A model generated the notes under the pieces. That model had not been told where the DNA came from. It did no database searches and saw nothing but the letters and a program-made list of their open reading frames with translations. Both the position numbers and the translations under genes were made by a program. From Pseudomonadota bacterium (GTDB lineage: Bacteria > Pseudomonadota > Gammaproteobacteria > Halothiobacillales > Halothiobacillaceae), in the NCBI GenBank assembly GCA_021795795.1, contig JAJYPA010000112.1, forward strand, positions 1 through 18,778: a DNA stretch of 18,778 bases, in the 5' to 3' direction. Positions 4,347 to 17,841 of the stretch are shown here, piece by piece. Positions within the stretch are counted from its first letter, which is position 1. Each line of letters begins with the position of its first letter.

Positions 4347-5642
4347 TCAGTGGTTCCTTAGAATCACATCAGTTAATTGGCTTGCAAGAAATTCACTTTC
4401 TTCCAATGTGTAGATGATTAATGGACGAATTTTTAAAGTATTTCCAGACTTTCCGCTGGTACTGATTAGCACTCCTCGCTTTTTTATCGCTTCAACAATA
4501 CGTAGACTGCTGACAGGGTCTGGTAGCCCTTTTTCAGTAACTATATCCACGGCCACGGACAATCCTTGGATACGAATATCACCTACCGCCGGACATAGTT
4601 CAGGCAAATTCCTTAATCCCTCCTCAATGATATGACTTTGAGTGCGAACATTGCCCATTAGGTCCCGTTCTTCAATTTCATCCAAAACGGCATGCGCTGC
4701 GGCCACTGCTACATTGTTACCTCCGAACGTATTAAAGTAACTGTCCGGAATGAAATCATCCAGATGCGACCGCATCAGAATGGCTGCAATGGGATATCCA
4801 TTGCCCATGGGTTTGCCCATCGTGATGATATCCGGTTCGGCACCATGCACTTGAAATCCCCAGAAATTTGTTCCAGATCGTCCAAATCCTGGCTGAACTT
4901 CATCAGCAATATATATACCGCCGTGCCGATGAATAATCTCTACGGCTTGCCTAAGAAATCCTTCCGGCTTAATAGCCAGACCATCACTGGTGAAAAACGA
5001 ATCAAAAATACCCCCGGCAAAACGCACCCCTTGGATAGCCATGGCGTCTAATGCCCGTTCAATACCCGTTAAAAAATTATTAGTACCGTCTCCACTGAGG
5101 CAAGGGGCAGGGACTGGATATATTTTAATCTGCAAGCGATCAGCCAGAGCTGCATATCCGTCCATGGATGTAGTCAATGTTTGGGTTAATCCAGTCAGAC
5201 CATGATAAGCATGTTCAGACACAATAAAACCATTGCCTCCGGTAACTTCCATGGCAATGCGCATGCCTAGGTCGTTGGCTTCACTACCTGTGCAGGTCAG
5301 AATGCTCCGCCAGGTACCCTGGGGATGTTTGTCCTGAATTCGTTCAGAAAGACGACAAAGCTCATCATTAACATAGCGTGTATGTGTACACAGAGTGGAT
5401 AATTGCTCAGTGATCGCTTGATTCACCCTCTGATTGGAATGTCCTACTGACACTACGTTGTTGTAGGCATCAAGGTATCTCCGCCCGTTCTTATCAATTA
5501 TCCAAGCACCAGTTCCTTTTATTGGTATTAATGGCTCCTGATAGAACAATTCGTATTTCTCGCTTAAAGTATTACGTCGACGCTTGATGTAATCGGGGAT
5601 ATCATTACTGCTGCTGATAGCATAGCTATTAAGCTTAAGCAT
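4347..5642 (-). CDS. Class III PLP enzyme, predicted AGXT2L-type amino-alcohol phosphate phospholyase
   Basis: The 431-residue protein has the fold-type I class III aminotransferase layout: GTGAWIIDKNGRRYLDAYNN (43-62), the PLP-phosphate loop GSEAND (119-124), IADEVQPGFGRSG (245-257) with Asp247 for the pyridine nitrogen, Schiff-base Lys277 in TMGKPMGNGYP, and YFNTFGGN. The DEVQ, GKPMGNG and FNT(Y/F)GGN forms match ethanolamine-phosphate and 5-phosphohydroxylysine phospholyases (human ETNPPL and PHYKPL) better than ordinary omega-aminotransferases. Those enzymes convert an O-phosphorylated amino alcohol to an aldehyde plus ammonia and phosphate. The gene follows the kinase gene by 15 nt, which supports this reading. 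A plain aminotransferase or a PbfA-like hydroxy-aminophosphonate lyase is the alternative. The DNA is AT-rich compared with the transporter genes. AAGGA precedes the ATG. Confidence 0.72.
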   Translation of the reverse strand: MLKLNSYAISSSNDIPDYIKRRRNTLSEKYELFYQEPLIPIKGTGAWIIDKNGRRYLDAYNNVVSVGHSNQRVNQAITEQLSTLCTHTRYVNDELCRLSERIQDKHPQGTWRSILTCTGSEANDLGMRIAMEVTGGNGFIVSEHAYHGLTGLTQTLTTSMDGYAALADRLQIKIYPVPAPCLSGDGTNNFLTGIERALDAMAIQGVRFAGGIFDSFFTSDGLAIKPEGFLRQAVEIIHRHGGIYIADEVQPGFGRSGTNFWGFQVHGAEPDIITMGKPMGNGYPIAAILMRSHLDDFIPDSYFNTFGGNNVAVAAAHAVLDEIEERDLMGNVRTQSHIIEEGLRNLPELCPAVGDIRIQGLSVAVDIVTEKGLPDPVSSLRIVEAIKKRGVLISTSGKSGNTLKIRPLIIYTLEESEFLASQLTDVILRNH

Positions 5643-5657
5643 AGAGAATTTTTCCTT

Positions 5658-6662
5658 TTAATTGAAACTAATTTTATGGCTGATGATATCAGAGACCACA
5701 TCGAACGACTGATATAACCAGGTATCACCAATTGACTGACAATATACGCTCTCACGATGTGAAAAATACCAAGCCATAAGTTGCACTCGGCGTAATCCGA
5801 TAAAGAAAGGTAGAAGATCGACTTCTTGTTTGCTTAATTTAGTTTGGTTTTGATATTGAGAAATAAAATGACCCAACCACTCTGGCATATCAGGCCGATG
5901 CTCAAGAAAACTGACTGTTGCAGCAACGTCGAACAAATACCAGGAGTGACAACAGTCATCAAAATCGATGGTAACAACCCCTCCATCGTGCAAGAGGACA
6001 TTGGTTGGTCGCATATCGGCATGGATCAATCCATATCGTCCCGTAGAATCGTACCGAGCAAGCCGAGAACGCAATTCCGCTATAAAGCCTAAAATTAAAT
6101 TCCGTTGCGGTTGATCTATGTAATCAGGATGATCCCAACTTCCCCAAACAGCGTGTGATCCAATAATTTCATCCAGTGTCCAGCGTGGCCGACTTTTTGT
6201 ATAGTCCTGAGTGATATTGGTAGAAACTTGGTGCATACGCCCCATAATGCTACCCATTTTCCCGTACGTGTCATAAAATTCAACTTCTTCAGGATGATGG
6301 CCTTTTACCCAGTGAAACAAAGTGACAAGCCGATCACCTTCAACGGTGTGCAGTTGTGATACAAAATGACCATCGCTTCGCCTGACCGGTTTGGCAGTTG
6401 CGATGCCATTATTAGAGAGGACCTCAACGAACTGGAGCTCTGCATTTATTTCTTCTAGGCAATGATATCCTGGCCGCTGGACCCGCATTGCAAAGTCTCC
6501 CCGCTCGGAAATAATCCGATAGGTGTGATTCTCAGAGCTGGTTACAAATTGGATTTCGTTTATGGACCCCAATTGGGGATATAGCGCACTGACTTGCCCC
6601 GCCATGTTTATTAATGGATCAGCTTTGCTTTCAATTACACTGTTATAATCGACGAGTACCAT
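5658..6662 (-). CDS. APH/choline-kinase-family small-molecule kinase, predicted amino-alcohol kinase
   Basis: The 334-residue cytoplasmic kinase carries the family's catalytic loop HADMRPTN (His214, Asp216, Asn221) and the metal-binding DFDD (233-236). Its N-lobe has SENHTYRI and FAMRVQRPG, with Arg where many relatives have Lys. The C-terminal pattern DDCCHSWYLFDVAATVSFLEH resembles homoserine kinase II and hydroxylysine kinase-like proteins. It would phosphorylate a hydroxyl on a small, probably amino-bearing, substrate and hand the ester to the PLP lyase encoded immediately downstream. GGAG lies 7-8 nt before the ATG. The 133 nt upstream (6663-6795) are AT-rich and separate this pair from the rest of the operon, so the pair could have its own promoter. 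The substrate is not determined by the sequence. Confidence 0.72.
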   Translation of the reverse strand: MVLVDYNSVIESKADPLINMAGQVSALYPQLGSINEIQFVTSSENHTYRIISERGDFAMRVQRPGYHCLEEINAELQFVEVLSNNGIATAKPVRRSDGHFVSQLHTVEGDRLVTLFHWVKGHHPEEVEFYDTYGKMGSIMGRMHQVSTNITQDYTKSRPRWTLDEIIGSHAVWGSWDHPDYIDQPQRNLILGFIAELRSRLARYDSTGRYGLIHADMRPTNVLLHDGGVVTIDFDDCCHSWYLFDVAATVSFLEHRPDMPEWLGHFISQYQNQTKLSKQEVDLLPFFIGLRRVQLMAWYFSHRESVYCQSIGDTWLYQSFDVVSDIISHKISFN

Positions 6663-6795
6663 TAAACATCTCCAAAGACAACGAATTTAACTTACTCTTC
6701 AGCAGGTTTAATCCCTGTTAGAATATTCTTAAACTGCTTGTTTTATCAGTAGGCTGGAGCAGCTTTCAACACCCTGATAATGCCCGCTTCTAACA

Positions 6796-7503
6796 TCACG
6801 AAACGCCTTTCAGATTTTGAAGAAGATCGTCTGCTGATATGACCTGGCAGTAGATGTTGTTGATGATTTCGAGCTCCTTGTCGTGCAGTTCTTTGGAGCC
6901 TGCGGCGCAACCATCCTCGATCACCACAGTATTGAAACTTTCGTCAGCCAGACTGCGGACTGTCGAGGAGATGCACTGATCGGTGAAGATCCCACAAACC
7001 ACGACATGCCGAATGCCCATATTGCACAGGATCAGCCGTAGATTCGTTCCGGTCAGCGCCGAATCGGTTGTCTTGGTGACCACGATCTCGTGCTCGAGCG
7101 GCCCGACTGGTGCATAAATTTTCGATGGCTGTTCGTCGTGCGGCAACAAGAGGTTGTTGAATCCTGGGCGACGCTGACTGAGCGAGCGATCTACCCCATC
7201 CGGTGTCAGGCAGGCGATCCGGGCGTGGAACACCGGCATGCTCGCCTTGCGGAAATACTCAAGCAGACGCTGTACCGTCGGCACGACAGTCTCGTTCATT
7301 CGCTCGTGAAACGGTGTCCAGGACTCGTACTCGGCCAACTCGGCATCTGACAGCCCCTTCGGTTCCGATCGATCCATGTAGGTGTTCTGGATATCGATCA
7401 CCAGCAGCGCGGTTGCTTCCGGCTCCAGTTCGAGATCCGGGATCTGCGCATGTTGGTAATAGAACGAACGGTAGCGATCCTTCCAGTGCATCTTGGTCGT
7501 CAC
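6796..7503 (-). CDS. Isochorismatase-family cysteine hydrolase (predicted amidase)
   Basis: The 235-residue protein has the complete catalytic triad of the isochorismatase/nicotinamidase superfamily: Asp37 in LLVIDIQNTYMD, Lys144 in VTKTTDSALTGT, and the nucleophile Cys177 in CGIFTDQCISSTVRSLAD. Family members hydrolyse amides, ureides or vinyl ethers, so here it may free an amino alcohol or acid from an amide. No cofactor motif is seen. The start at 7503 is GTG, 3 nt after the SDR stop, without a good ribosome site; an ATG four codons later (MHWKDRY) is an alternative. Tight spacing puts it in the transporter-SDR operon. Confidence 0.8.
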   Translation of the reverse strand: MTTKMHWKDRYRSFYYQHAQIPDLELEPEATALLVIDIQNTYMDRSEPKGLSDAELAEYESWTPFHERMNETVVPTVQRLLEYFRKASMPVFHARIACLTPDGVDRSLSQRRPGFNNLLLPHDEQPSKIYAPVGPLEHEIVVTKTTDSALTGTNLRLILCNMGIRHVVVCGIFTDQCISSTVRSLADESFNTVVIEDGCAAGSKELHDKELEIINNIYCQVISADDLLQNLKGVS

Positions 7504-7506
7504 GGC

Positions 7507-8277
7507 TCAGGCATCCACTGCTTCGAGGGTTTCCGGCAGCACCTGACCACCATCGACCACCAGCGACTGCGAGGTAATATATCCGGCGTTTTCCTGCGCG
7601 AAGAATAAGGCAGCAACGCCGATGTCCTCAACATCGCCGAGTCGCTTCATTGGAATCGAGGACGTCATGGTCTTAAGGTAGGCCTCACCCAGATCGGCAA
7701 GACCTTCGGTGTAGATGTTCCCCGGCAGAACGGCGTTGACCGTGATGCCGAACGGCGCATATTCGATTGCGGCAGTACGCATGAATCCAAGCTGTGCGGA
7801 CTTGGTTGCGCCATAATGCGCCCAACCCGGTAAACCGGTGATCGGTCCTGTGATCGAAGACGTGATCACGATGCGACCGGCTTTACTCTTCTTGAGTTGC
7901 TCACTTGCTGCCTGAATGCTGAACAGCATGCCCTTGACATTAACGTCGAATATGTCATCCCAATCCTGCTCGGTCATATCGTCGAGCTTGGCGGACGGAA
8001 ACATGCCGGCATTGGCGCAGAGCACGTCCAGACCACCGAATTTCTCGACGGTAGCTGCTACTGCTGCCTTCATGGAATCAAGGCTTGTGACGTCACCTGG
8101 AACAAACATGACATCGCCGCGACCAAAGGCCTTCAGTTCCTGCTCGACGACCGCGCCCTTCTCGGCATTACGGGCTGTGATTACGACGTTGTAACCATTT
8201 TTGGCGAACACGCGCGCGATGCCTTTGCCTATGCCCAGCGTTCCGCCGGTAACCAATACGGTGCGTGTATCACTCAT
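7507..8277 (-). CDS. Short-chain dehydrogenase/reductase
   Basis: A 256-residue classical SDR. The nucleotide site is TGGTLGIG (10-17) and Arg36 follows strand 2 (ITARN), favouring NADP(H). NAG is at 89-91, and the catalytic residues are Asn113, Ser141, Tyr155 and Lys159 (HYGATKS). The C-terminal GYITSQSLVVDGGQ is typical of the 3-oxoacyl-ACP reductase/sugar dehydrogenase-like group. Substrate names cannot be assigned within this family; context suggests an alcohol or aldehyde intermediate of the cluster's pathway. Its ATG overlaps the end of the upstream permease gene by 8 nt, with AAGGAG 7 nt before the ATG, so translation is probably coupled. Confidence 0.85.
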   Translation of the reverse strand: MSDTRTVLVTGGTLGIGKGIARVFAKNGYNVVITARNAEKGAVVEQELKAFGRGDVMFVPGDVTSLDSMKAAVAATVEKFGGLDVLCANAGMFPSAKLDDMTEQDWDDIFDVNVKGMLFSIQAASEQLKKSKAGRIVITSSITGPITGLPGWAHYGATKSAQLGFMRTAAIEYAPFGITVNAVLPGNIYTEGLADLGEAYLKTMTSSIPMKRLGDVEDIGVAALFFAQENAGYITSQSLVVDGGQVLPETLEAVDA

Positions 8278-9073
8278 AGATCTTCTCCTTGGGCTTCATG
8301 AATTTGACTGCAAAGAAAAACAGCAGGGTGGTAATGCCGGCTGCGATCACCGAGAAGGTGCCCATCGCCGGAATCAGTGGAGAGTAGCCGCCAACCATCT
8401 TGGCGTAGAGCCATTCGGGCATGGTCACGTCGGCACCATCGGTGTACATCGAAAGGGCAAAGTTACCCCACGACATCAGGAAGGCGAACAGGGCAGCCGA
8501 AATCATTGACGGCAGCATCAACGGCAGTGAAATACGCCACAGGATCATTCGTCGGGAAGCGCCCAAGTCGGACGCCGCCTCTTCAAGGGAGGGATCGAGA
8601 CTGTAGGCCTGAATCGCCATGATTAACGTAGTGATCGGCGTGATCCAGATCGCATGCGCGACCACAGCCGTCTTCCAACTCGGAGTTATGCCCAGGAAGG
8701 TGAACCAGATCAATAGTGCCAGCCCTAAAACCGTCTGCGGGAAGAAGATAGGCAGGATGATGATTTTCTGGAACAGCTTGCGGCCCTTCCAGTCGTAGCG
8801 CGCGAAAGCCAGTGCCGCGAAGAACCCCACAACCACGGTAATGATCGTTACCATCGCTGCCACGGTCAGTGACGTCTTGATGAGCTCCGCCACCGTTAGC
8901 GAATCCACCATCTTCTCGTACCAACGGGTACTGAATGCACTGAATGGGAAGCTGAAGTAGCGATGTTCGGATATCGAAGCCAGCGTAGTAGCGAACAGCG
9001 GCATGTACAGCACCAGCAACACGCCGATGGCGTAGATGGCCAGGAGATTCCGCGTGATTTTTGAACGTTGCAT
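8270..9073 (-). CDS. ABC transporter permease, PotC-like
   Basis: The 267-residue inner-membrane protein has about six hydrophobic segments and a cytoplasmic EAA loop, EEAASDLGASRRMILWRISL, that docks on the ATPase. It resembles the second permease of spermidine/putrescine and 2-aminoethylphosphonate-type importers (LYMPLFATTLASIS near the N-terminus). A GAGGAG site lies 6 nt before the ATG, and the gene starts 12 nt after the first permease. Together with the neighbouring permease, ATPase and binding-protein genes it makes a complete importer. Confidence 0.88.
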   Translation of the reverse strand: MQRSKITRNLLAIYAIGVLLVLYMPLFATTLASISEHRYFSFPFSAFSTRWYEKMVDSLTVAELIKTSLTVAAMVTIITVVVGFFAALAFARYDWKGRKLFQKIIILPIFFPQTVLGLALLIWFTFLGITPSWKTAVVAHAIWITPITTLIMAIQAYSLDPSLEEAASDLGASRRMILWRISLPLMLPSMISAALFAFLMSWGNFALSMYTDGADVTMPEWLYAKMVGGYSPLIPAMGTFSVIAAGITTLLFFFAVKFMKPKEKIYE

Positions 9074-9085
9074 GCGTCTCTCCTC

Positions 9086-9955
9086 TTACTTTCGAAACAG
9101 CCGGTCGAGTTCGACCTTGGAAAGTACGTAGGTCAGCATCCCACCGATGATCAGCAGCAGGGCTGTCGAGAGCGCGGAGCCCAATGGCCAGTTCTGTGCG
9201 TAGGAAAAGATGCTCTCAATGTTCTGTGTGATCGGAATGACCTTGCCACCACCAAGGATCTTCGCTTCGGAAACGGCACCGACAGACAGGACAAAAGTCA
9301 GTAGCGAGCCGATCAGAATGCCCGGAGAAGACAATGGCAGATCGATACTGCGGAAAATCAACCACCAGTTAGCTCCGAGATCATTTGCAGCTTCGCGGAC
9401 CTGATCCGGGATCATCGAAATCCCCAACACCAGCGGAAATAGCATGAATGGCAGGTAGACGTAGCTCATGCCGAAGACGATCACCGGAACGTTGTACAGT
9501 GCGTTATCTAGTCCCAACCCGAACTGCTTGAGCGTGCCGTCAAAGACCCCTCCCTTCATCAGGGTCAGCGACCAACCGAACAGACGGATGTTCTCGGACA
9601 CGAACAGGAGCAGCACAACGGCTAGCGTGATCAGCGTCGCCCCACGGTTGAAGATCTTGGCCATGGCAAAAGCCAAGGGGTAGCAGACCACAAGCAGGAT
9701 CGCCGTGGTTAGTCCCGCCAGAAACAGCGACCAGAGCAGCGATGTGATGTAGGTGTCACTGCCAAGGATTTCATTGTAGTTCTGTAGCGTCGGCATATGC
9801 CCCAGGCCAAAGGTTTTCGCCGGCATGAAGCTGAAAACCACAATCAGCAGCAACGGGACAATAAAGCCGAATAACAGCAGGGCAATCCCAGGTATGGAGA
9901 ACAGAACGCCGGGACTGGGCGCGACGCGCTTGGGCTTTTGATTGTTCGACAACAT
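9086..9955 (-). CDS. ABC transporter permease, PotB-like
   Basis: A 289-residue polytopic membrane protein with a short basic N-terminus, a first membrane helix at about 20-42 (GIALLLFGFIVPLLLIVVFS), further hydrophobic segments, and the EAA loop EAANDLGANWWLIFRSIDLP. Family and size fit the first permease of polyamine-type (PotB/PhnU-like) importers. Its ATG follows the ATPase stop codon by 1 nt, and a GGAG within the end of the ATPase gene serves as ribosome site, so the two are translationally linked. Confidence 0.88.
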   Translation of the reverse strand: MLSNNQKPKRVAPSPGVLFSIPGIALLLFGFIVPLLLIVVFSFMPAKTFGLGHMPTLQNYNEILGSDTYITSLLWSLFLAGLTTAILLVVCYPLAFAMAKIFNRGATLITLAVVLLLFVSENIRLFGWSLTLMKGGVFDGTLKQFGLGLDNALYNVPVIVFGMSYVYLPFMLFPLVLGISMIPDQVREAANDLGANWWLIFRSIDLPLSSPGILIGSLLTFVLSVGAVSEAKILGGGKVIPITQNIESIFSYAQNWPLGSALSTALLLIIGGMLTYVLSKVELDRLFRK

Positions 9956-9956
9956 C

Positions 9957-11030
9957 TCAGGACTCCAGGAGCATGCTGTCTTTGATTAACCAGCCGACAA
10001 AGACCTCGGCATTATCGCTATCGAACTTGGTCTTGCGCTCGACGGTCAGCAGGTGCCCATCGACGTCGACGTGATACTGGTACCGCGAACCCAGCATGTA
10101 TTCGTTCACGAGCTTCCCGGATACCTGGTTGTCGTAAGGACCGGGCTCTTCGGTCAGGTGCAGGGTTTCAGGGCGTACCAGCAGCGTTCTGGTTTCACCA
10201 CTGGCCAGTTTCTTGGGCAACGTCAATGGGTAGTGGCGCCAACGCGGGGTGGTCCACTTTCCGGTTGGACTATTGTCTCCTGCTACGTTGAGCAGGTTCA
10301 CCTCGCCGATAAATTCGGCAACGAAGGCATTTCGTGGCTTTTCATAAATGTGAGTCGGTGTGCCAATCTGTTCAATGTTGCCATCACGCAGGATCGCCAG
10401 CCGATCGCTCATGATCATCGCCTCTTCGAGGGAGTGCGTGACATAAACAAACGTCTTGCGCGTCTTGCGTTGAATATCCTTCAGCTCCTTCTGCAGGATC
10501 TTGCGCAGACGGGCATCAATCGCTGAAAGCGGTTCGTCGAAGAAAAGTATTTCCGGTTCATAGGCTAACGCTCGAGCCAGCGCCACCCGCTGACGCTCAC
10601 CGCCGGACAATGCGGTCACTTTCTTGCTGTAATAGCTTTCGGGCAAATGCAACATGTCCATGAGCATGCAGGTCTGGGTACGCCACTCGGTAGGTGAAAT
10701 CCCCCGGGTACGCATCGGAAACTGAATGTTCTGCGCCACCGTCATGTGGGGAAACAAGGCCAGAGACTGGAACACCATGCACGTAGGGCGCATGTTTGCG
10801 GGCACGTCATTGATGACCTCCCCATTCAGCAAAATTTCACCCGACGTCGGGCGCTCCATCCCGACCAGCATGCGCAGCAGGGTCGTCTTGCCGCTGCCAG
10901 AGGGACCAACCAGTGTAAAAAATTCCCCCCTTTGCACCTCCAGGCTGACATCCTTAACAGCTTGAAAGTCACCGAAACGCTTGCCGATGTGCTTCAGTTC
11001 CAGAATCGCGTTGTTTTCAGATAAGAACAC
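9957..11030 (-). CDS. ABC transporter ATPase, PotA-like
   Basis: The 357-residue ATPase shows all the expected motifs: Walker A GPSGSGKTT (42-50), Q-loop Gln88, signature LSGGERQ (141-147), Walker B with Asp165-Glu166 (ILFFDEP), and switch His199. A ~115-residue C-terminal TOBE/regulatory domain follows, as in polyamine and iron importers (LLVRPETLHL). It powers uptake by the adjacent permease pair. The start is GTG at 11028-11030, with only GAAAAGAAA before it, so translation may be modest. It lies 31 nt after the binding-protein gene. Confidence 0.88.
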   Translation of the reverse strand: MFLSENNAILELKHIGKRFGDFQAVKDVSLEVQRGEFFTLVGPSGSGKTTLLRMLVGMERPTSGEILLNGEVINDVPANMRPTCMVFQSLALFPHMTVAQNIQFPMRTRGISPTEWRTQTCMLMDMLHLPESYYSKKVTALSGGERQRVALARALAYEPEILFFDEPLSAIDARLRKILQKELKDIQRKTRKTFVYVTHSLEEAMIMSDRLAILRDGNIEQIGTPTHIYEKPRNAFVAEFIGEVNLLNVAGDNSPTGKWTTPRWRHYPLTLPKKLASGETRTLLVRPETLHLTEEPGPYDNQVSGKLVNEYMLGSRYQYHVDVDGHLLTVERKTKFDSDNAEVFVGWLIKDSMLLES

Positions 11031-11061
11031 TTTCTTTTCAACCTCGTTACATCAAAACCGA

Positions 11062-12213
11062 TCAAACCTTGCGCCTAGCGTCGAGATATATTTTGTACAT
11101 CTCGTCGTAATCAGGGTTGACGTCGAAATCGATGGACCCATCCATTTCTTCTTCGAGGGTGTCCCACTGGATGGCATCTAGCTCGTCCTTGTCGAACAGG
11201 GCCATCGTATCCTTGCTACCCATCTGTGCGACCGGGTTGTAAGTCCCCTCGGCAAACGCGACGCGTTTGGCAACCTTCGGCTGCTGTACATACTCGAGGA
11301 ACTGCGGCGCCAGCGTGGAAGGGTTCGGGTTGTTGACCAGTGAGGTCACTTCTATCCATACCACACCACCCTTACCATTGACCGGGCCAGAGTTTGGGGT
11401 AATACCGCGGACTTCGCTCCGGCCGTCATAACGGGCCGGTGACGCTGTGTAGGTGCCGCCGGTGAAGTAGGCGTCAATTTCGCCGTTGATCAGCGCAGTG
11501 TTCATGGCAACTAGATCACCGCTCAGGAGCTTCGCACCAGAGAAGATCTGTTCGGCAACGGTTTTGAACTTGGCGAGCTCTTCGGGGGTATGTTTGCGGA
11601 ACGGATCGAAGTCAGCTGTCAAGCACAAGTGGATGACATTCCAGTTGTCGTAGGTCAGAACGCCGTAACGCCCCTTCATCTTCGGATCGAGGAACAGCTT
11701 ATAGCCTTGATCCTCGGCCATCTTCTTGGAAATTTTCTTGGTATTCACCACGAAGCTGAACGGCCCGAAACGCTGGGTCATGCCGATCAGGTCCTTGCCG
11801 CTCGGGTCGAGGGCCCACTTGATCGGCGTACCGTCCTTCTCGCGGAAGTACGGCATCATTTTTTCAAAATATGGCTCAAAGCGGTTGCGATCCAGCGGCT
11901 TGATCAGATTGGCGGGATAAAGCTGTTCTCGTGCCCAGGGCTGGTTAACGTTGATCAGATCCCAGATATTGCGCTCACCGGCACGCAACTTGTTGATCAT
12001 GTCCGGATCGTCCGTGCTGGACTCTGCACGGATCTTGGCATCGGGGTGCAGTCGACGGAATGGATCGAGCACATCACCGGTGTTGTATCCCTCCCAGCAG
12101 AGAATGTTGAGGGAGTCCGAACGTGCCGCCAGCGCACGGTTGGGCAATATCGGACCGGCGAGGCCAGCTAGTGCCAAGCCAGCGGGAATCTTCAGGAAGT
12201 CACGACGATTCAT
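11062..12213 (-). CDS. Tat-exported PotD-like substrate-binding protein
   Basis: A 383-residue binding protein of the spermidine/putrescine (PotD)-like class: LNILCWEGYNTGDVLDPF after the signal, then the DLINVNQPW and FVVNTKKISKKM regions. The N-terminus MNRRDFLKIPAGLALAGLAG is a twin-arginine signal, with export probably ending near ALAARS. An ATG two codons upstream (12219) also opens the frame, but AAGGAG lies only 2 nt before it and 8 nt before the ATG at 12213, so 12213 is preferred. It should bind the cluster's substrate, probably a cationic amine, amide or aminophosphonate-like molecule. It heads the operon and is preceded by the probable operator. Confidence 0.88.
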   Translation of the reverse strand: MNRRDFLKIPAGLALAGLAGPILPNRALAARSDSLNILCWEGYNTGDVLDPFRRLHPDAKIRAESSTDDPDMINKLRAGERNIWDLINVNQPWAREQLYPANLIKPLDRNRFEPYFEKMMPYFREKDGTPIKWALDPSGKDLIGMTQRFGPFSFVVNTKKISKKMAEDQGYKLFLDPKMKGRYGVLTYDNWNVIHLCLTADFDPFRKHTPEELAKFKTVAEQIFSGAKLLSGDLVAMNTALINGEIDAYFTGGTYTASPARYDGRSEVRGITPNSGPVNGKGGVVWIEVTSLVNNPNPSTLAPQFLEYVQQPKVAKRVAFAEGTYNPVAQMGSKDTMALFDKDELDAIQWDTLEEEMDGSIDFDVNPDYDEMYKIYLDARRKV

Positions 12214-12248
12214 TGGCATATCTCCTTGTATCTCGTTAAATGGCGAGT

Positions 12249-12262
12249 CTGGTATATACCAG
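12249..12262. promoter_or_regulatory. Probable operator for the GntR/UTRA regulator
   Basis: CTGGTATATACCAG is a perfect 14-bp palindrome in the leader of the binding-protein gene. Its core TGGTATATACCA differs at one position from the TGGTATAGACCA sites known for the HutC-subfamily repressor PhnF, and the neighbouring gene encodes a regulator of that subfamily. It lies ~20-35 nt downstream of the best -10 candidate, a position suited to repression. No second copy was seen upstream of the regulator gene. Confidence 0.6.
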
Positions 12263-12282
12263 TCTTAGGAAGATCTATGCCA

Positions 12283-12288
12283 ATTATA
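12283..12288 (-). promoter_or_regulatory. Candidate -10 element of the transporter operon
   Basis: The minus strand reads TATAAT here, within a strongly AT-rich 12280-12330 stretch. No good -35 hexamer sits at 16-18 nt; a TTGATA lies closer, at about 13 nt. This is therefore a weak prediction resting mainly on the hexamer and on the operator just downstream. The whole 12214-12416 interval is otherwise without a gene. Confidence 0.3.
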
Positions 12289-12416
12289 ATATTATGTTAT
12301 TTATCAATTTGTTATAATATTTTTTGACTAAGCGGGCGTGACAATATTGCACTTGGTACGTGCAGCCAAGCCTCCTCATGCGCAAATATGTTGCAATGGA
12401 ATGGGAAGAACGTGAA

Positions 12417-13112
12417 TCAGACAGGTGTCGCAATGTGAAGCTCAATTGCGCCGGGTAACCAGTGCTCGGCATCAAACTCGATCAGTTTGCCTTTGGCGAA
12501 ACGCAAGCGCTCAATCATGAGACTGTGCGTTCCCGGCGCGACCCCCATGGCAGCCGCCTGAACCGCATCAAGCAGAGCGGAGCGGACATTCGTTTCTTCC
12601 CGATCGATCTCAATCCCGTAATCTCTGACAAGCAGATTAGTGATCGAATCGCAAAGATTGTGTCCGAGCACGTCCGGCACCGCATCAGATACCAGAAAAA
12701 TGGATTCAAACATCACCGGGCGGTCATCAAGATAACGAACACGCTGCAGACACGAGGCTTCGCCACCACTTTTGGATCGAAGCGGCTCTGGTAAATTTGT
12801 GCTCGTAAACGTACCACTTCCAAGCAGCTCGATCCGAGCAGCCCGGCCCTGAGCGCTAGCCATGCTGTTGTAATTCGCCTTCTGCCCCAAGTTATAGATG
12901 AAACGAGAGGGGCTCACAAACCAGCCACGACGGCTCTTTCCATATACCAAGCCGTCTGCTTCAAGCTTGATCAGAGCTGCTCGCAGTGTCAGGCGAGAAA
13001 TCTTCAACTGTTTGCTGAACTGGCGCTCAGGAGGTAGTCGAGTCCCGGATTGGAGATTTCCGTTAGCAATCTGCTCCGCAATATAGTCGGCGACGTCCTG
13101 GTATCCATTCAT
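12417..13112 (-). CDS. GntR-family (HutC/UTRA) transcriptional regulator
   Basis: The 231-residue regulator has an N-terminal GntR winged helix (~1-70: LPPERQFSKQLKISRLTLRAALIKLEADGLV) and a UTRA effector domain (~85-230: VRYLDDRPVMFESIFLV through IEFDAEHWLPG). Such proteins usually repress a nearby uptake or catabolic operon and release DNA when a small ligand binds UTRA. The likely operator is the palindrome at 12249-12262, before the transporter operon. The gene lies upstream of that operon on the same strand, 197 nt from the binding-protein gene. The 13113-13374 region before it contains one flanking repeat and no gene. Confidence 0.85.
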   Translation of the reverse strand: MNGYQDVADYIAEQIANGNLQSGTRLPPERQFSKQLKISRLTLRAALIKLEADGLVYGKSRRGWFVSPSRFIYNLGQKANYNSMASAQGRAARIELLGSGTFTSTNLPEPLRSKSGGEASCLQRVRYLDDRPVMFESIFLVSDAVPDVLGHNLCDSITNLLVRDYGIEIDREETNVRSALLDAVQAAAMGVAPGTHSLMIERLRFAKGKLIEFDAEHWLPGAIELHIATPV

Positions 13113-13232: not shown

Positions 13233-13374
13233 ACCGAAGGCGGAAAAAGATAAGGGGTGTGGCGATCAACGGGGCGGACGCGGTTCATAATGGACATCGC
13301 GGCGAGAGGAGTGGGTGCTATTTACACCACATTTTGAAAATGTCCGACAGGCTCCTCTAGTAAGTTCCAAAAGA

Positions 13375-13404
13375 AAAGGCTTGGACTGTTACGCCTAAGC
13401 CTTT
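13375..13404 (-). terminator. Rho-independent terminator of the tRNA gene
   Basis: AAAGGCTTGG (13375-13384) pairs with CCTAAGCCTTT (13394-13404) with one bulged T, loop 9 nt. On the minus strand the hairpin is followed by TTCTTTTGG, a T-rich tail, about 9 nt after the tRNA 3' end. Confidence 0.7.
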
Positions 13405-13412
13405 GATTTATA

Positions 13413-13489
13413 TGGTGGGCCCAGCAGGACTTGAACCTGCGACCAATCGATTATGAGTCGACTGCTCTAACCAACTGAGCTATAGGCCC
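13413..13489 (-). tRNA. tRNA-Ile2 (anticodon CAT, lysidine-type)
   Basis: A 77-nt cloverleaf with encoded CCA. The acceptor pairs GGGCCTA with TGGGCCC (one G-T), then come the D-arm GCTC...GAGC, anticodon stem GTCGA/TCGAT with loop CTCATAA, and T-arm GCAGG-TTCAAGT-CCTGC. Anticodon CAT (plus-strand ATG at 13453-13455) could be Met or Ile2. The anticodon arm, GGTCGC and GGGCCCACCA tail closely follow E. coli ileX, which decodes AUA after TilS converts C34 to lysidine. Its place downstream of rpoD agrees with ileX in E. coli. Confidence 0.92.
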
Positions 13490-13499
13490 TGATAGGGGC

Positions 13500-13514
13500 G
13501 CGGCAGAGTGCCGC
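13500..13514. repeat. Small perfect hairpin beside the tRNA 5' end
   Basis: GCGGCA-GAG-TGCCGC is a perfect 6-bp stem with a 3-nt loop, between the tRNA 5' end and the hairpin array. Its form resembles hairpin 2 of the first array unit (GGGGCA-GGA-TGCCCC), so it may be a leftover of the same family. Confidence 0.5.
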
Positions 13515-13528
13515 CTGACTTTCCGTTA

Positions 13529-13683
13529 GGGAAGCGCTGATTTATTCAGTGCTTCCCGCTTGGGGCAGGATGCCCCAACACGAACAAAGGCGTAAGTCTT
13601 TGATTCGTTTGAGCCATCGCGGGCGTGTACCGCGATGAGCGAGCTGATTTATTCCAAGGATGGAATAAATCAGCATTTACTTA
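13529..13683. repeat. Hairpin array, unit 1 (five consecutive stem-loops)
   Basis: Five stem-loops follow with only 1-7 nt between them. H1 13529-13557: GGGAAGCGCTGA/TCAGTGCTTCCC. H2 13560-13578: TTGGGGCA/TGCCCCAA. H3 13580-13608: ACGAACAAAG/CTTTGATTCGT, one bulge, loop GCGTAAGT. H4 13615-13637: CATCGCGG/CCGCGATG, loop GCGTGTA. H5 13643-13674: GCTGATTTATTCC/GGAATAAATCAGC. The unit is bounded by TTAGGGAAG on both sides. It sits between rpoD and tRNA-Ile, whose minus-strand transcripts would include it. Structured RNA or a hairpin-type DNA element are both possible; I do not recognise the family. Confidence 0.8.
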
Positions 13684-13840
13684 GGGAAGTCTGCACAAAT
13701 GCAGACCTTCCCGTGCAGGGTATGGAAGCCCTGCCGCTCAATGACGTAAGTCATTGAAATGCGTAGCACAAGACGGGCGTGTACCGGCTTGTGCGTTTCT
13801 GCACGCATCCATGGATGGATTCGTGCAGAGATACCTTAGA
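13684..13840. repeat. Hairpin array, unit 2 (tandem diverged copy)
   Basis: Same order as unit 1 at a period of ~155 nt. H1' 13684-13712: GGGAAGTCTGCA/TGCAGACCTTCCC. H2' 13715-13734: GCAGGG/CCCTGC. H3' 13738-13757: TCAATGAC/GTCATTGA around GTAA, keeping CGTAAGTC. H4' 13766-13794: GCACAAG.CGG/CCG.CTTGTGC with the identical loop GCGTGTA. H5' 13798-13829: TCTGCACG/CGTGCAGA enclosing ATCCA/TGGAT. Stems mostly differ from unit 1 on both arms while pairing is kept. The unit ends 2 nt before the rpoD stop codon. No T-run follows, so it is not an ordinary terminator. Confidence 0.8.
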
Positions 13841-13842
13841 GG

Positions 13843-15684
13843 TCAGTCGATGTTCATTTCGATGAAGCTGCGCAGCCGCTCGGAACGAGACGGGTGGCGC
13901 AATTTACGCAATGCCTTAGCCTCGATTTGCCGTATGCGCTCGCGCGTGACATCGAACTGCTTGCCGACCTCTTCCAGCGTGTGGTCGGTATTCATACCAA
14001 TACCAAAGCGCATCATTAATACCTTGGCCTCACGCGGGGTGAGTGAGGCGAGAATCTCGCGCACGATCTCAGACAGGCTGGCGTTTGTAGCCGAGTCCAT
14101 TGGCGAAATAGCGCTCTGATCTTCGATGAAATCCCCCAGATTGGAGTCGTCATCCTCGCCGATCGGGGTTTCCATGGAAATCGGTTCCTTGGCGATTTTG
14201 AGCACCTTGCGAATCTTGTCTTCCGGCAGATCCATACGCTCGGCCAGTTCTTCCGGCGTGGCTTCCCGTCCCATTTCCTGCAACATCTGACGGCTGATAC
14301 GGTTCAGCTTGTTAATGGTTTCGATCATGTGCACCGGAATACGGATGGTGCGCGCCTGGTCGGCGATCGAACGGGTAATGGCTTGGCGAATCCACCACGT
14401 GGCGTAGGTCGAAAATTTGTAGCCACGGCGGTATTCGAATTTGTCGACCGCTTTCATGAGGCCGATGTTGCCTTCCTGAATCAAATCCAGGAATTGCAGG
14501 CCACGGTTGGTGTATTTTTTGGCGATGGAGATCACGAGCCGCAGGTTGGCTTCGATCATTTCCTTTTTCGCGCGCCGCGCCTTGGCTTCACCCAAGGTGA
14601 TGAGGCGATGCACTTCACGGGTTTGTGCCACGGTCAGCTTGCTGTCGCGCGCGACGGTATTGAGCCTTTTTTGCAGGCGTTCGATCTCCGACCGTACTTG
14701 AATGAACTTTGCTGTCGGCTTGCCTTTGGTGGCGATATCGATCCAGCCGATGTCCGACTCGTTGCTGCGGAAAGCCTCAATGAACGTTTCGCGCTTGAGA
14801 CCGCCTTTTTCTACGGCTTGATGCATGATTTGCTTTTCAAGCAGGCGAATCCGGGCAATGGCCTGACGAATTTGATTGAGCAGTTTTTCATTGAACGCCG
14901 GGTTGAGCTTGAGCTGGACCAACTGGTCGGCAAGACTGGCGAGGTATTCCGGTGAGCGCTCGTCAAGGTTCTCGGCCAGGCGCTTGATTTCCATCAGGTG
15001 GATCCGCACGAGTTCAGGGTCGAGCGTGTTGTCGACTACCGCTTCTTCTTCGGTATCGTCGTCTTCGTCCTCGTCTTCATCCTTGTCGTTTGTTTTGTCC
15101 GATTTTCCTTCTGCGACGTCCAGAGGTTTTTCTTCAGCATCTTCGGGAATTTCGACTTCCGGTTCAATAATACCGACGATGACATCCTGCATACGCAATT
15201 CCCCCGCTTCGATCCGGGCGTAGTGTTCGAGCAGGGTTTCTATGGTCGGTGGGTAGAAGGCCAACGCACGGGTGACGTCGATCAGGCCTTCTTCGATGCG
15301 TTTGGCGATTTCAATTTCGCCTTGACGATTGAGCAGATCGACCGTACCCATTTCGCGCATGTACATACGCACGGGGTCAGTGGTGCGACCGAATTCAGCA
15401 TCGACTTGAGATGCGAGCACGGCGACGGCTTCTTCAGTGGCATCTTCGTCGCTGGCAGCGCGGGATTCGTCGGTCAGCCCAAGGTCATCGCCATCGGGGG
15501 CGACATCGGAAACGGAAATGCCCATTTCCTGAATCATGCCGATGATGTCCTCGATCTGGTCGGCATCGACTAGGGCTTCGGGTAAATGGTCACTTATTTC
15601 CGCGTAGGTCAGGTAACCCTGTTCCCGGCCGCGAGCGATGAGTGATTTGATGCTGGCCTGCTGGTCTTCGTACATGTGCGGCAT
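13843..15684 (-). CDS. rpoD: Primary sigma factor RpoD (sigma-70)
   Basis: The 613-residue housekeeping sigma factor of RNA polymerase. Region 1.1 is at the N-terminus ([21 protein letters not shown]) and region 1.2 has [17 protein letters not shown] highly acidic non-conserved insert (~190-225, Asp/Glu run) is typical of proteobacterial RpoD. Region 2 contains the core-binding and -10 recognition helix ([20 protein letters not shown]), region 3 follows, and the region 4 HTH ([20 protein letters not shown]) recognises -35. Length equals that of the E. coli protein. It lies downstream of dnaG by 122 nt in the conserved macromolecular-synthesis order. An ATG three codons into the frame (MYEDQ) is an alternative start. 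Confidence 0.97.
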
Positions 15685-15806: not shown

Positions 15807-17477
15807 TTAGTACTTCTGATTTTTTTCTCGCTCTGCCATGAAGTGCGCCAACGCCTGCCGTGACGCCTGTTTGCTTGCGGAATCCGACTCGCTACGATGC
15901 AGTTGGATCAGGGTGTCGTGGAGAATGTCCTGTGCGGTATCGGAAGTTTCTATGCCCTGAAATTCGATGGCGAGCGCGGTCTTCGTTTCTTCCGCTCCCC
16001 AGAACTCGGTGGCCGATTGAACCCACTGCGCACGCGGTTGTGATGCCAGCAGCCGGAACCCTTCGGGAATCCTGGCGTTGAACCAGACTTCCGGTGCCAG
16101 AACCCGCGGCAATAGATCGGGGTGTTTGAGCACGATCGAGAGAATCAGTGTCTGTTTGGCGTAACTTTGCGGTTTGCTGCGCGGTAAGGTGGGCTCGTTA
16201 GGCGCTGAGTTTTTTTTGTAAGCCGCACGCCAAACCCCGGTGTGTTCGTTGATGCGACGTTGTGTGATGCGCTTGAGCGCACCGTCTGGCAGGGTGCGAA
16301 TCCAGTCGTTGCCCTGTTTGGATTTTTTCGCCATGGCCGCCGTGTCCTGCCCCGGTTCCATTTGATCGAGCAGTTGCAGGATGAAATTGTCGAACGACAG
16401 ACTGTGGTGCTCGATCAGCTCGATAAAAGATGATTTTCCCTTGGCTTGAATGAAACTATCCGGGTCCTCGCCATCGGGCAGAAATAAAAAGCGCAGGTCT
16501 CGTCCATCAGTGAGATGGGGCAGAGCCACGTGCAGTGCCTTTGTCGCAGCCCGGCGCCCGGCAGCATCGCCATCGAAACAAAACACCAGGCTGGGGCTGA
16601 AACGATACAGGCTTTGTATCTGTTCGTCGGTCGTCGCCGTGCCCATGGTCGCGACTACGTTGCGCACGCCGTGTTGCGCCAGCATCACCACGTCCATGTA
16701 GCCTTCCACGATGATGACGCGAGCGGGTCGGGCGTCATCGAGCCTCGCTTCATACAGACCGTAAAGGTTTTGGCCTTTGTGGAACAGTCTCGATTCGGGT
16801 GAGTTGAGGTACTTGGGTTCGCCCGCACCTAAAATACGACCACCGAAGCCGATGATCTGACCGCGTTTTTCCCGGATCGGAAACATGATGCGCCGTCGGA
16901 AGCGATCGTACTGTTCCCCATCGTCTTTCTGCACGATCAGACCGAGTTCAAGTAGCTCATCACGCATTTTCGGCTTTGATTCGCAGTGGGCCAGCAAAAG
17001 GTTGCCATTAGGGGCGAAGCCTAATTGGAACAAGGCCGCCGTCATGCCATTAACGCCGCGTTGCTTGAGGTAGTCGATCGCTTCCTGATGCGCGCGAAGT
17101 TGGCGCTTGAAGTGGCTGTTGGCGAAGCTCATGCTGTCGAGCATGGCGGCCTGTTCTTCCAGTGCCTTATGATCCACTTCGCTGACAGGCAGCGTCATGC
17201 CTGCACGTGTCGCCAGTTCCTCGATCGCGCCGCGAAAATCTCGATGCTCATAATCGATCAGAAAACTGACGGCATTGCCATGTGCCCCGCAACCGAAGCA
17301 GTGATAGAACTGCTTATCCGGGTTTACGTAAAAAGAAGGCGTTTTTTCCTGATGGAACGGGCAGCAGGCCGCATATTCCTTGCCTTTTTTCTTGAGCGGC
17401 ACCTGGGCGTGGATCAACTCGACCAGATCTGTGCGGGCCAGTACATCGTCAATAAAGGATTCGGGGATGAAACTCAT
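15807..17477 (-). CDS. dnaG: DNA primase DnaG
   Basis: Synthesises RNA primers at the replication fork. Numbered from the ATG at 17477 (556 residues): CHC2 zinc ribbon with Cys39, His42, Cys60, Cys63 (CPFHQEKTPS, YHCFGCG), then the RNA-polymerase core, then the Toprim centre with Glu258 (IIVEGYMDVV) and Asp302/Asp304 (FCFDGDAAGR), positions close to E. coli Glu265, Asp309, Asp311. A diverged C-terminal helicase-binding domain follows. The frame is open to 17513, but MSFIPESFIDDVLARTD is the canonical family start, so 17477 is chosen; no strong ribosome site is visible. The rpsU gene that precedes dnaG in E. coli is absent here. Confidence 0.96.
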   Translation of the reverse strand: MSFIPESFIDDVLARTDLVELIHAQVPLKKKGKEYAACCPFHQEKTPSFYVNPDKQFYHCFGCGAHGNAVSFLIDYEHRDFRGAIEELATRAGMTLPVSEVDHKALEEQAAMLDSMSFANSHFKRQLRAHQEAIDYLKQRGVNGMTAALFQLGFAPNGNLLLAHCESKPKMRDELLELGLIVQKDDGEQYDRFRRRIMFPIREKRGQIIGFGGRILGAGEPKYLNSPESRLFHKGQNLYGLYEARLDDARPARVIIVEGYMDVVMLAQHGVRNVVATMGTATTDEQIQSLYRFSPSLVFCFDGDAAGRRAATKALHVALPHLTDGRDLRFLFLPDGEDPDSFIQAKGKSSFIELIEHHSLSFDNFILQLLDQMEPGQDTAAMAKKSKQGNDWIRTLPDGALKRITQRRINEHTGVWRAAYKKNSAPNEPTLPRSKPQSYAKQTLILSIVLKHPDLLPRVLAPEVWFNARIPEGFRLLASQPRAQWVQSATEFWGAEETKTALAIEFQGIETSDTAQDILHDTLIQLHRSESDSASKQASRQALAHFMAEREKNQKY

Positions 17478-17841
17478 GACGCACATTGTAGAGTAACCGT
17501 CAAATCTCGCCACCGGGCTGGTGAGCTCGGCTGAGGTCGGTCGAAAAGTCTTGTCGTCCGGTTTGTCAATCAGGCGCTGTGATTGGCGGTGGTAAATCGA
17601 ATGATGTTTGATTTTGTGTTGCGGCTTGCGCCATTGCTTGCCTATTTTCCAGATTATTCTTGTGTTTATCCAGTGACAAATATCATAATTATCATTTTGT
17701 TATTGGCTTTACTTAAAGATGATGATCTTTTTGTATTTGTTACTTGAGTGTTGTTGAATTTGCGGTCAAACTATCAACAAAAAATAATTGATCAATCGTT
17801 TTTGATTGGTCGCAAACGGCAGGATTGAAAGGGGTATTCCA
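17478..17841. other. AT-rich divergent intergenic region
   Basis: No gene is supported in these 364 nt between the divergent dnaG and Sel1 genes. Two small stems are visible: AAAGAT-GATG-ATCTTT (17715-17730, followed by TTG), and GATCAATC/GATTGGTC (17789-17811, one G-T pair, loop GTTTTT) just ahead of the Sel1 ribosome site. Promoters for both flanking genes probably lie here, but no convincing -35/-10 pair can be picked by eye. Confidence 0.4.

Follow-up and report, generated by a model that had tools for sequence, protein, structure and literature searches.

Five-hairpin repeats beside rpoD: a dispersed family with IS5-type ends and GGA-bearing loops that may bind CsrA

Two tandem units of 155 bp, each folding into five hairpins (H1 to H5), occupy positions 13526-13839 of the window (the whole stretch of 18,778 nt that was analysed), with TTAG words as their borders. 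They belong to a dispersed family in which changes in the stems compensate each other, so that the hairpins persist, and in which GGA is retained, on one strand, in the H2 and H5 loops of distant genomes. We are highly confident that the units represent a mobile MITE of IS5 type. Concerning the interior of the element, we lean slightly towards IS5-mobilised MITEs that are possibly CsrA decoys when they are transcribed.

The minus strand of the window carries dnaG (15807-17513, named by eye) and rpoD (13843-15684, a name backed by a homology search); 353 bp beyond rpoD follows a tRNA gene with anticodon CAT (13413-13489), which is Met(CAT) according to ARAGORN and which an earlier note on this DNA had called tRNA-Ile2. 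Read from H1 to H5, the feature lies on the plus strand and is antisense to both rpoD and the tRNA. The TTAG words start at 13526, 13681 and 13836, which corresponds to a period of exactly 155 bp (Table 1). Elsewhere in the window, a gene cluster on the minus strand (4347-13112) codes for a class-III aminotransferase, an APH-type kinase, an isochorismatase-like protein and a GntR/UTRA regulator (by Pfam) and, as judged by eye, also for an SDR-like protein and an ABC transporter, while the region 998-2926 codes for a single protein in which a phosphonate-type periplasmic binding domain is fused to a LuxR-type DNA-binding domain.

Table 1. Coordinates of the two five-hairpin units in the window and of their parts.
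Feature	Position	Strand	Basis
TTAG word (YTAR type of target duplication) at the left border of unit 1	13526..13529		sequence; 4-nt duplications in relatives
Unit 1, five-hairpin element (155 bp if one TTAG is counted)	13530..13680	+	R2 match, fold
Unit 1 H1, formed by the left inverted end folding back	13529..13557	+	fold, Aromatoleum plasmid match
Unit 1 H2, loop AGGAT, putative CsrA-type GGA loop	13560..13578	+	fold, loop count
Unit 1 H3, loop CGTAAG	13580..13608	+	fold
Unit 1 H4, loop GCGTGTA closed by CGG/CCG	13615..13637	+	fold
Unit 1 H5, AGGA loop closed by CCA/TGG, putative CsrA-type GGA loop	13643..13674	+	
Unit 1 H5, 3' arm, right inverted end			
TTAG word common to both units	13681..13684		
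Unit 2, five-hairpin element	13685..13835	+	R2 match, fold
Unit 2 H1, formed by the left inverted end folding back	13684..13712	+	fold
Unit 2 H2, loop ATGGAA	13715..13734	+	fold, loop count
Unit 2 H3, loop CGTAAG	13735..13763	+	fold
Unit 2 H4, loop GCGTGTA closed by CGG/CCG	13766..13794	+	fold
Unit 2 H5, TGGA loop closed by CCA/TGG, putative CsrA-type GGA loop	13798..13829	+	
TTAG word, right end of unit 2 (rpoD end, 13843, 3 bp away)	13836..13839		

The ten hairpins follow one another in a row (13529-13829), as the earlier note had described when it recognized ten stem-loops in two units of ~155 nt. The minimum free energy of 13524-13839 is -173.0 kcal/mol, compared to -97.8 +/- 5.1 kcal/mol for 200 dinucleotide shuffles, the lowest of which reached -112.0. 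Also in agreement with that description, the fold shows that the arms of H1 (GGGAAG/CTTCCC), the core of H3 (CGTAAGTC) and a block of H4 (CGGGCGTGTACCG) are identical in both units, while the remaining stems differ in sequence between the units and yet pair. Because H1 and H5 contain the two inverted ends, their arms have sequence in common within a unit, namely GCTGATTTATTC in unit 1 and TCTGCAC in unit 2; this common sequence differs between the units. The pair carries four GGA loops, in H2 and H5 of each unit. No strong terminator was found, the scan giving two T-tail matches where 0.9 +/- 0.9 are expected. A simple scan of 13250-13900 gave no sigma-70-like promoter match. In the Rfam search of the window only tRNA reached its gathering score, and nothing over the units was better than E 0.31.

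The earlier note had suggested turning the two units into a covariance model for searches of other genomes, and this search uncovered the dispersed family. The model from the two window units (R1) matched in 7 of 369 genomes sampled from a single class, and a model from 18 copies (R2) matched in 52 of the same 369 and in 46 of 398 genomes of a phylum sample. The two samples overlap in some genomes (e.g. G372), and the R2 copy numbers in both are lower limits because at most nine candidates were scored per genome. R2 assigns 91.5 bits to unit 1 (13558-13674) and 90.0 bits to unit 2 (13714-13829), scores that are not independent since both units are R2 training sequences. Copies from 26 and from 19 genomes have most of the five hairpins, with a few lacking a clear H1, H2 or H5. 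Left out of alignment A6 were L102, which has no H5, and the degenerate copies L090 and L094.

In one order of eight genomes, the element is found in three, with at least 150 matches in G375 (150 of 2198 candidates scored), 29 in G269 and 10 in G157, and none in the other five. Sixty stretches of G375 (689 kb, picked for holding matches) gave 71 and 84 R2 matches at E <= 1e-8. One of these 155 matches was dropped for overlap, and 55 of the 154 copies, being without a clear end class, were excluded from the gene-orientation, mismatch and flank tests. G375 has at least 10 tandem pairs, 152-155 bp apart and on one strand, which are joined at one target word where inspected. Some G375 copies abut fragments of other subfamilies or seem to be nested in them.

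In an rpoD tree of seven element-bearing genomes, the hosts fall on several separate branches, with G269 and G157 close together; the place of the window is unsure because of its long branch, and rpoD homologues of the window gene are distant kin only (at best 62% in the best segment). R1 has no match in 80 rpoD loci of other genomes. The idea of an RNA gene with a conserved place beside rpoD was discarded. A pattern scan of viral sequences returned three loci, two of identical sequence, none of which is element-like, and these were taken as chance. When the region was compared to phages and plasmids by BLASTN, only short matches were obtained, but the end matches among them pointed to IS5 ends.

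The end TAGGGAAGCGCTGATTTATTC (13527-13547) is identical over 21 of 21 nt on an Aromatoleum plasmid, ~75 nt upstream of an annotated IS5 family transposase gene. In G269, one 330-codon DDE_Tnp_1 frame gave 12 matches; its transposase (327 aa) scores 325.7 bits with NCBIfam transpos_IS5_4 (cut-off 140) and matches Pfam DDE_Tnp_1. The seven examined IS copies of G269 have the ends GGAAACGCTGATTTATTC and GATCAGCGTTTCC, and each is flanked by identical four-base words (CTAG, CTAA, TTAG or ATAA). One end class of the element is called class A. In G375 its copies carry either the same 18-nt end as the G269 IS (L161) or the variant GGAACCGCTGATTTATTC (L143, L224), and this variant is also present on the G375 transposase locus L166, where TTAA precedes it; TTAAGGAACCGCTGATTTATTC occurs both on a transposase locus of G375 and on L143 and L224. 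The class A copies of G269 itself have CGCTGATTTAT in common and differ at their tips. The inverted ends of class A in G375 match those of IS5-type elements in G375 and G269, and the left end of unit 1 equals the sequence preceding an IS5-family gene.

In G375, 13 of the 21 class A copies have identical 4-nt words on both sides (CTAG, TTAA, ATAG and others), while over 2,000 shuffles the mean was 2.0 and the highest value 7. One insertion also has an empty site: a copy in G269 has no counterpart at the orthologous position in G157, with flanks of 1,472 and 1,435 bp that are 94-95% identical. The word CCTGAG occurs once at this locus in G157 and twice in G269, and it shares bases with the TGA stop codon that closes a 283-codon frame at 1471 of L107. 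Together with the three TTAG words of the window, these cases show target duplication, and the element is short (155 bp), occurs in multiple copies and has no transposase gene of its own. Two further end classes, B (AGAGCTTGTGAA) and C (CAGGCCGTTGAAAA), have the same interior as class A, and no autonomous partner was found for them. The class B end pattern occurred at 5 and 2 sites; two of these seven loci have no R2 match, and there only a left-end remnant was present, while neither a second end word nor an IS was seen. A short element on plasmid pWW53 (L104, 3015-3121) has the same IS5-type ends (TTAGGGAAGCGCTGATATATTC ... GAATACTTCAGCGTTTTCCTAG) without the five-hairpin interior, and thus another MITE appears to have these ends in common.

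The leading ideas of the earlier note were a new structured RNA and a hairpin-based mobile repeat. Support was obtained for both the structured RNA and the mobile repeat; as to how the repeat moves, the findings favour IS5-type ends and target duplication over a hairpin-specific mechanism. A mechanism with a hairpin transposase (IS200/REP-type) was dropped because the ends and duplications fit IS5. As judged from the matching ends, an IS5 transposase would act in trans on the inverted ends to move the 155-bp unit, and would duplicate a YTAR-like word. The target word at each border would again be a target, and tandem pairs such as that of the window would therefore arise. Target words with TAA or TGA in them may allow the element to insert at stop codons, where it would do little harm.

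When 18 copies were aligned with MAFFT and folded with RNAalifold, 25 pairs were obtained in H2 to H4, of which 23 have changes on both sides. Counted over this structure, 96.4% of the cells pair, and none of 500 shuffles reached any of the measures; slid controls reached 29-37%, a comparison in which the consensus structure is favoured as it was derived from the same sequences. H5 folds in most single copies; its loop lengths are misregistered by MAFFT, which is why the consensus lacks it. The stems keep pairing in relatives, as expected from the claim that selection or a copying mechanism maintains the structure, and so the loss of pairing in homologues, which had been named as evidence against that claim, did not occur.

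In the 18-copy alignment, most stem changes affect both partners of a pair (99 cells), changes on one side that leave a standard pair are few, and there are 41 distinct double changes among the G375 copies. This is what one would expect if the hairpins of an IS5-mobilised MITE matter only at the DNA level or for its own spread, with template switching or arm-to-arm correction keeping the palindromes perfect, or with a role in replication or transposition, and with loops that are inherited without an RNA function. We consider this possible, if on the doubtful side; arm correction alone would not preserve loops.

The loops were compared in 52 units from 51 genomes, with the window contributing two units and with G254, which has weak copies, excluded. 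On the plus (H1 to H5) strand, GGA is in the loop of H2 in 49 of 52 units and of H5 in 43 of 52 (of nine flagged units, G120, G176 and G401 do show a GGA loop in H5 by eye), compared to 1 of 51 for H1 and 0 of 52 for both H3 and H4. A stricter rule leaves 46 of 52 (H2) and 43 of 52 (H5). On the opposite strand, GGA is in one loop overall, an H3. The five arm bases beside the loop have a mean identity of only 50% in H2 and 41% in H5, and the persistence of GGA next to such variable arms, in two different hairpins and on one strand, argues against a role at the DNA level only. In the class A copies of G375 (23 copies), two positions beside GGA in H5 vary in 43% and 48% while the three GGA sites are invariant, and in H2 the GGA varies in up to 4%. 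This contrast may be due in part to subfamilies, and in class B of G375 GGA is kept no better than other loop sites. The loop of H3 is of GNRA type in 18 of 52 units. The H4 loop also recurs, as GCGTGTA, ATCGCAT and ATCACAT types, and some genomes have a different type of H4 stem-loop.

Loops with GGA bring CsrA to mind, and the pattern leads us to give it somewhat less than an even chance of being the partner that binds H2 and H5. The sections of PMC7652899 that deal with CsrA SELEX report the consensus, a preference for six-base loops and the ANGGAN loop of RsmE. RUACARGGAUGU occurs with all 12 positions in 2 of 52 units and its 10-nt core ACARGGAUGU in 6 of 52, with none on the opposite strand. 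According to the same sections, SELEX ligands mostly have four or fewer contiguous pairs, and the stems of the element, with ~6-14 pairs, are longer than those of typical CsrA ligands.

As in Csr/Rsm RNAs, there are several GGA motifs in hairpin loops, and no Csr/Rsm model of Rfam reached its gathering score in the window or at the loci of 13 relatives. The best match over an element at these 13 loci (E up to 5) was RsmW over L263, with 35.5 bits (gathering score 52; E 0.019), all others over the elements having E 0.11 or worse. The GGA loops and this weak similarity of one relative would fit a dedicated gene for a trans-acting Csr-type sRNA at the rpoD-tRNA locus. We regard such a gene as very improbable, because copies are dispersed and an empty site exists: there are many copies per genome at other loci, the 80 rpoD loci compared from other genomes have none detectable with R1, and there is no promoter match in the window.

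The prediction that hosts of the element have CsrA was not refuted. The csrA gene is present in all of the first eight host genomes, and also in 4 of 5 element-free genomes from the order of G269. In the class sample it is found in 49 of 52 element-bearing and 264 of 317 other genomes (p 0.04, which is weak). The phylum sample shows it in 44 of 46 compared to 176 of 352 (p 2e-10), an association that is confounded by ancestry and assembly completeness, as genomes are not independent events. Many element-bearing genomes of 1.6-2.9 Mb in the phylum sample have two or three weaker csrA-like matches, and these genomes may be one clade.

Mismatches in the stems provide a view on the strand that matters. 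With G-T and A-C scored in the same way, 33 units read on the H1 to H5 strand have 25 G-T, 7 A-C and 14 other mismatches (G-T versus A-C, p 0.002), some of which are shared by descent. Within G375 (64 class B, 23 class A and 8 class C copies), distinct mismatches are near parity, with 48 G-T and 37 A-C (p 0.28). A first count over all copies, 63 G-T and 24 A-C in 466 distinct hairpins, was set aside because copies share changes by descent. Selection at the RNA level is therefore supported across genomes and not within one, and we consider it fairly probable for the H1 to H5 strand; the excess across genomes speaks against a role restricted to DNA, while the near parity inside G375 is in accord with it, as is the absence of a sense bias there. 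The earlier note had taken minus-strand read-through from rpoD to the tRNA as the relevant RNA. This proposal is not supported, since the GGA loops and the cross-genome excess of G-T (G-U in RNA) are on the plus strand. As H1 to H5 is antisense to rpoD and the tRNA, the window copies would act only if the plus strand is transcribed.

Orientation relative to genes was determined in G375 with home-made codon-model gene calls for 89 of the 99 classed copies, 10 that overlap a gene call having been set aside. The nearest called gene on the relevant side, at any distance, reads into the element in sense for 21 and in antisense for 30 class B copies, and for 36 and 43 copies of classes A, B and C together. 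Orientation is therefore neutral, and the sense bias that would have spoken for an RNA function was not found. Outside gene calls, 9 of 60 class B copies start at the stop codon of a called gene in sense orientation. Such positions, the demonstrated insertion that overlaps a TGA stop, and the very stable folds are what one would expect if the hairpins mainly protect or process mRNA 3' ends or limit read-through, with incidental GGA loops. We think this unlikely, as antisense placements are at least as common, there is no T-run, and the confinement of GGA to H2 and H5 would be left unexplained.

Under our favoured reading as IS5-mobilised MITEs and possible CsrA decoys, a transcript running from H1 to H5 would display two hairpins of CsrA/RsmA type per unit, and four for the pair in the window. 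Copies would then act as scattered CsrA binding sites, either as decoys or as local anchors in 3' UTRs. The two GGA loops of unit 1 are ~90 nt apart (13568 and 13658), which exceeds the CsrA bridging range of 10-63 nt given in the relevant section of PMC7652899, but H3 and H4 may shorten the path between the two loops. A further-reaching version, to which we give only tentative credence, is a transposable family with two conserved putative CsrA hairpins per copy, in which every insertion would bring in further decoys or place a 3' UTR under CsrA-dependent control.

Should CsrA bind the GGA loops, the movement of a 155-bp element would spread sites for a global regulator through genomes. This would explain why RNA loops are kept while stems and ends change, and it would allow a direct test of how mobile DNA contributes to post-transcriptional networks. 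The Csr network would have a mobile layer tuned by copy number, comprising as many as hundreds of sites in a genome, and such an element family would span a sizeable share of Gammaproteobacteria. Even without CsrA, a dispersed family with separate hairpins, position-specific loops and interchangeable ends is an unusual architecture, and the family is common (52 of 369 genomes in the class sample).

The earlier note knew of no named family with this layout, and we also encountered neither an Rfam match at gathering score nor a described repeat in what was searched. No description of such an element was found among the open-access papers listed as matches; subscription papers, ISfinder and preprints were outside this scope, so an earlier name is possible. 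CsrA and 'miniature inverted-repeat' were found together in PMC4383904 only, where, in the portion considered, the topics are in separate passages, and PMC10969869 is, from the portion considered, a further paper related to the topic.

Among known systems, IS5-family elements (transpos_IS5_4) have the same end core and type of target word as class A and occur together with it in G269 and G375; the element differs from them in having a five-hairpin interior and no transposase gene. REP/BIME elements are likewise palindromic, intergenic and present in high copy number, and are set apart, by description only, from five-hairpin units of 155 bp with IS5-type ends. NEMIS/Correia, ERIC, RUP and QMITE1/2 resemble the element, according to the portions of PMC2229807 and PMC5896051 that describe them, in their size of ~100-400 bp, inverted ends, target duplication and stable folds. 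In those portions, elements other than CIR are reported to have a stem formed by pairing of the 5' and 3' ends (PMC2229807), QMITE2 to have variable duplications of 7-11 nt and a GTAG REP, and functional genes affected by QMITEs to have the QMITE at their 3' end (PMC5896051). By these descriptions only, the element is set apart by its five separate hairpins and loop-specific conservation. CsrB, RsmY, RsmZ and RsmW also have several GGA hairpin loops per RNA; these, however, are sRNA genes, whereas the element is a dispersed transposable repeat that stays below the Rfam threshold and whose CsrA-type loops are putative.
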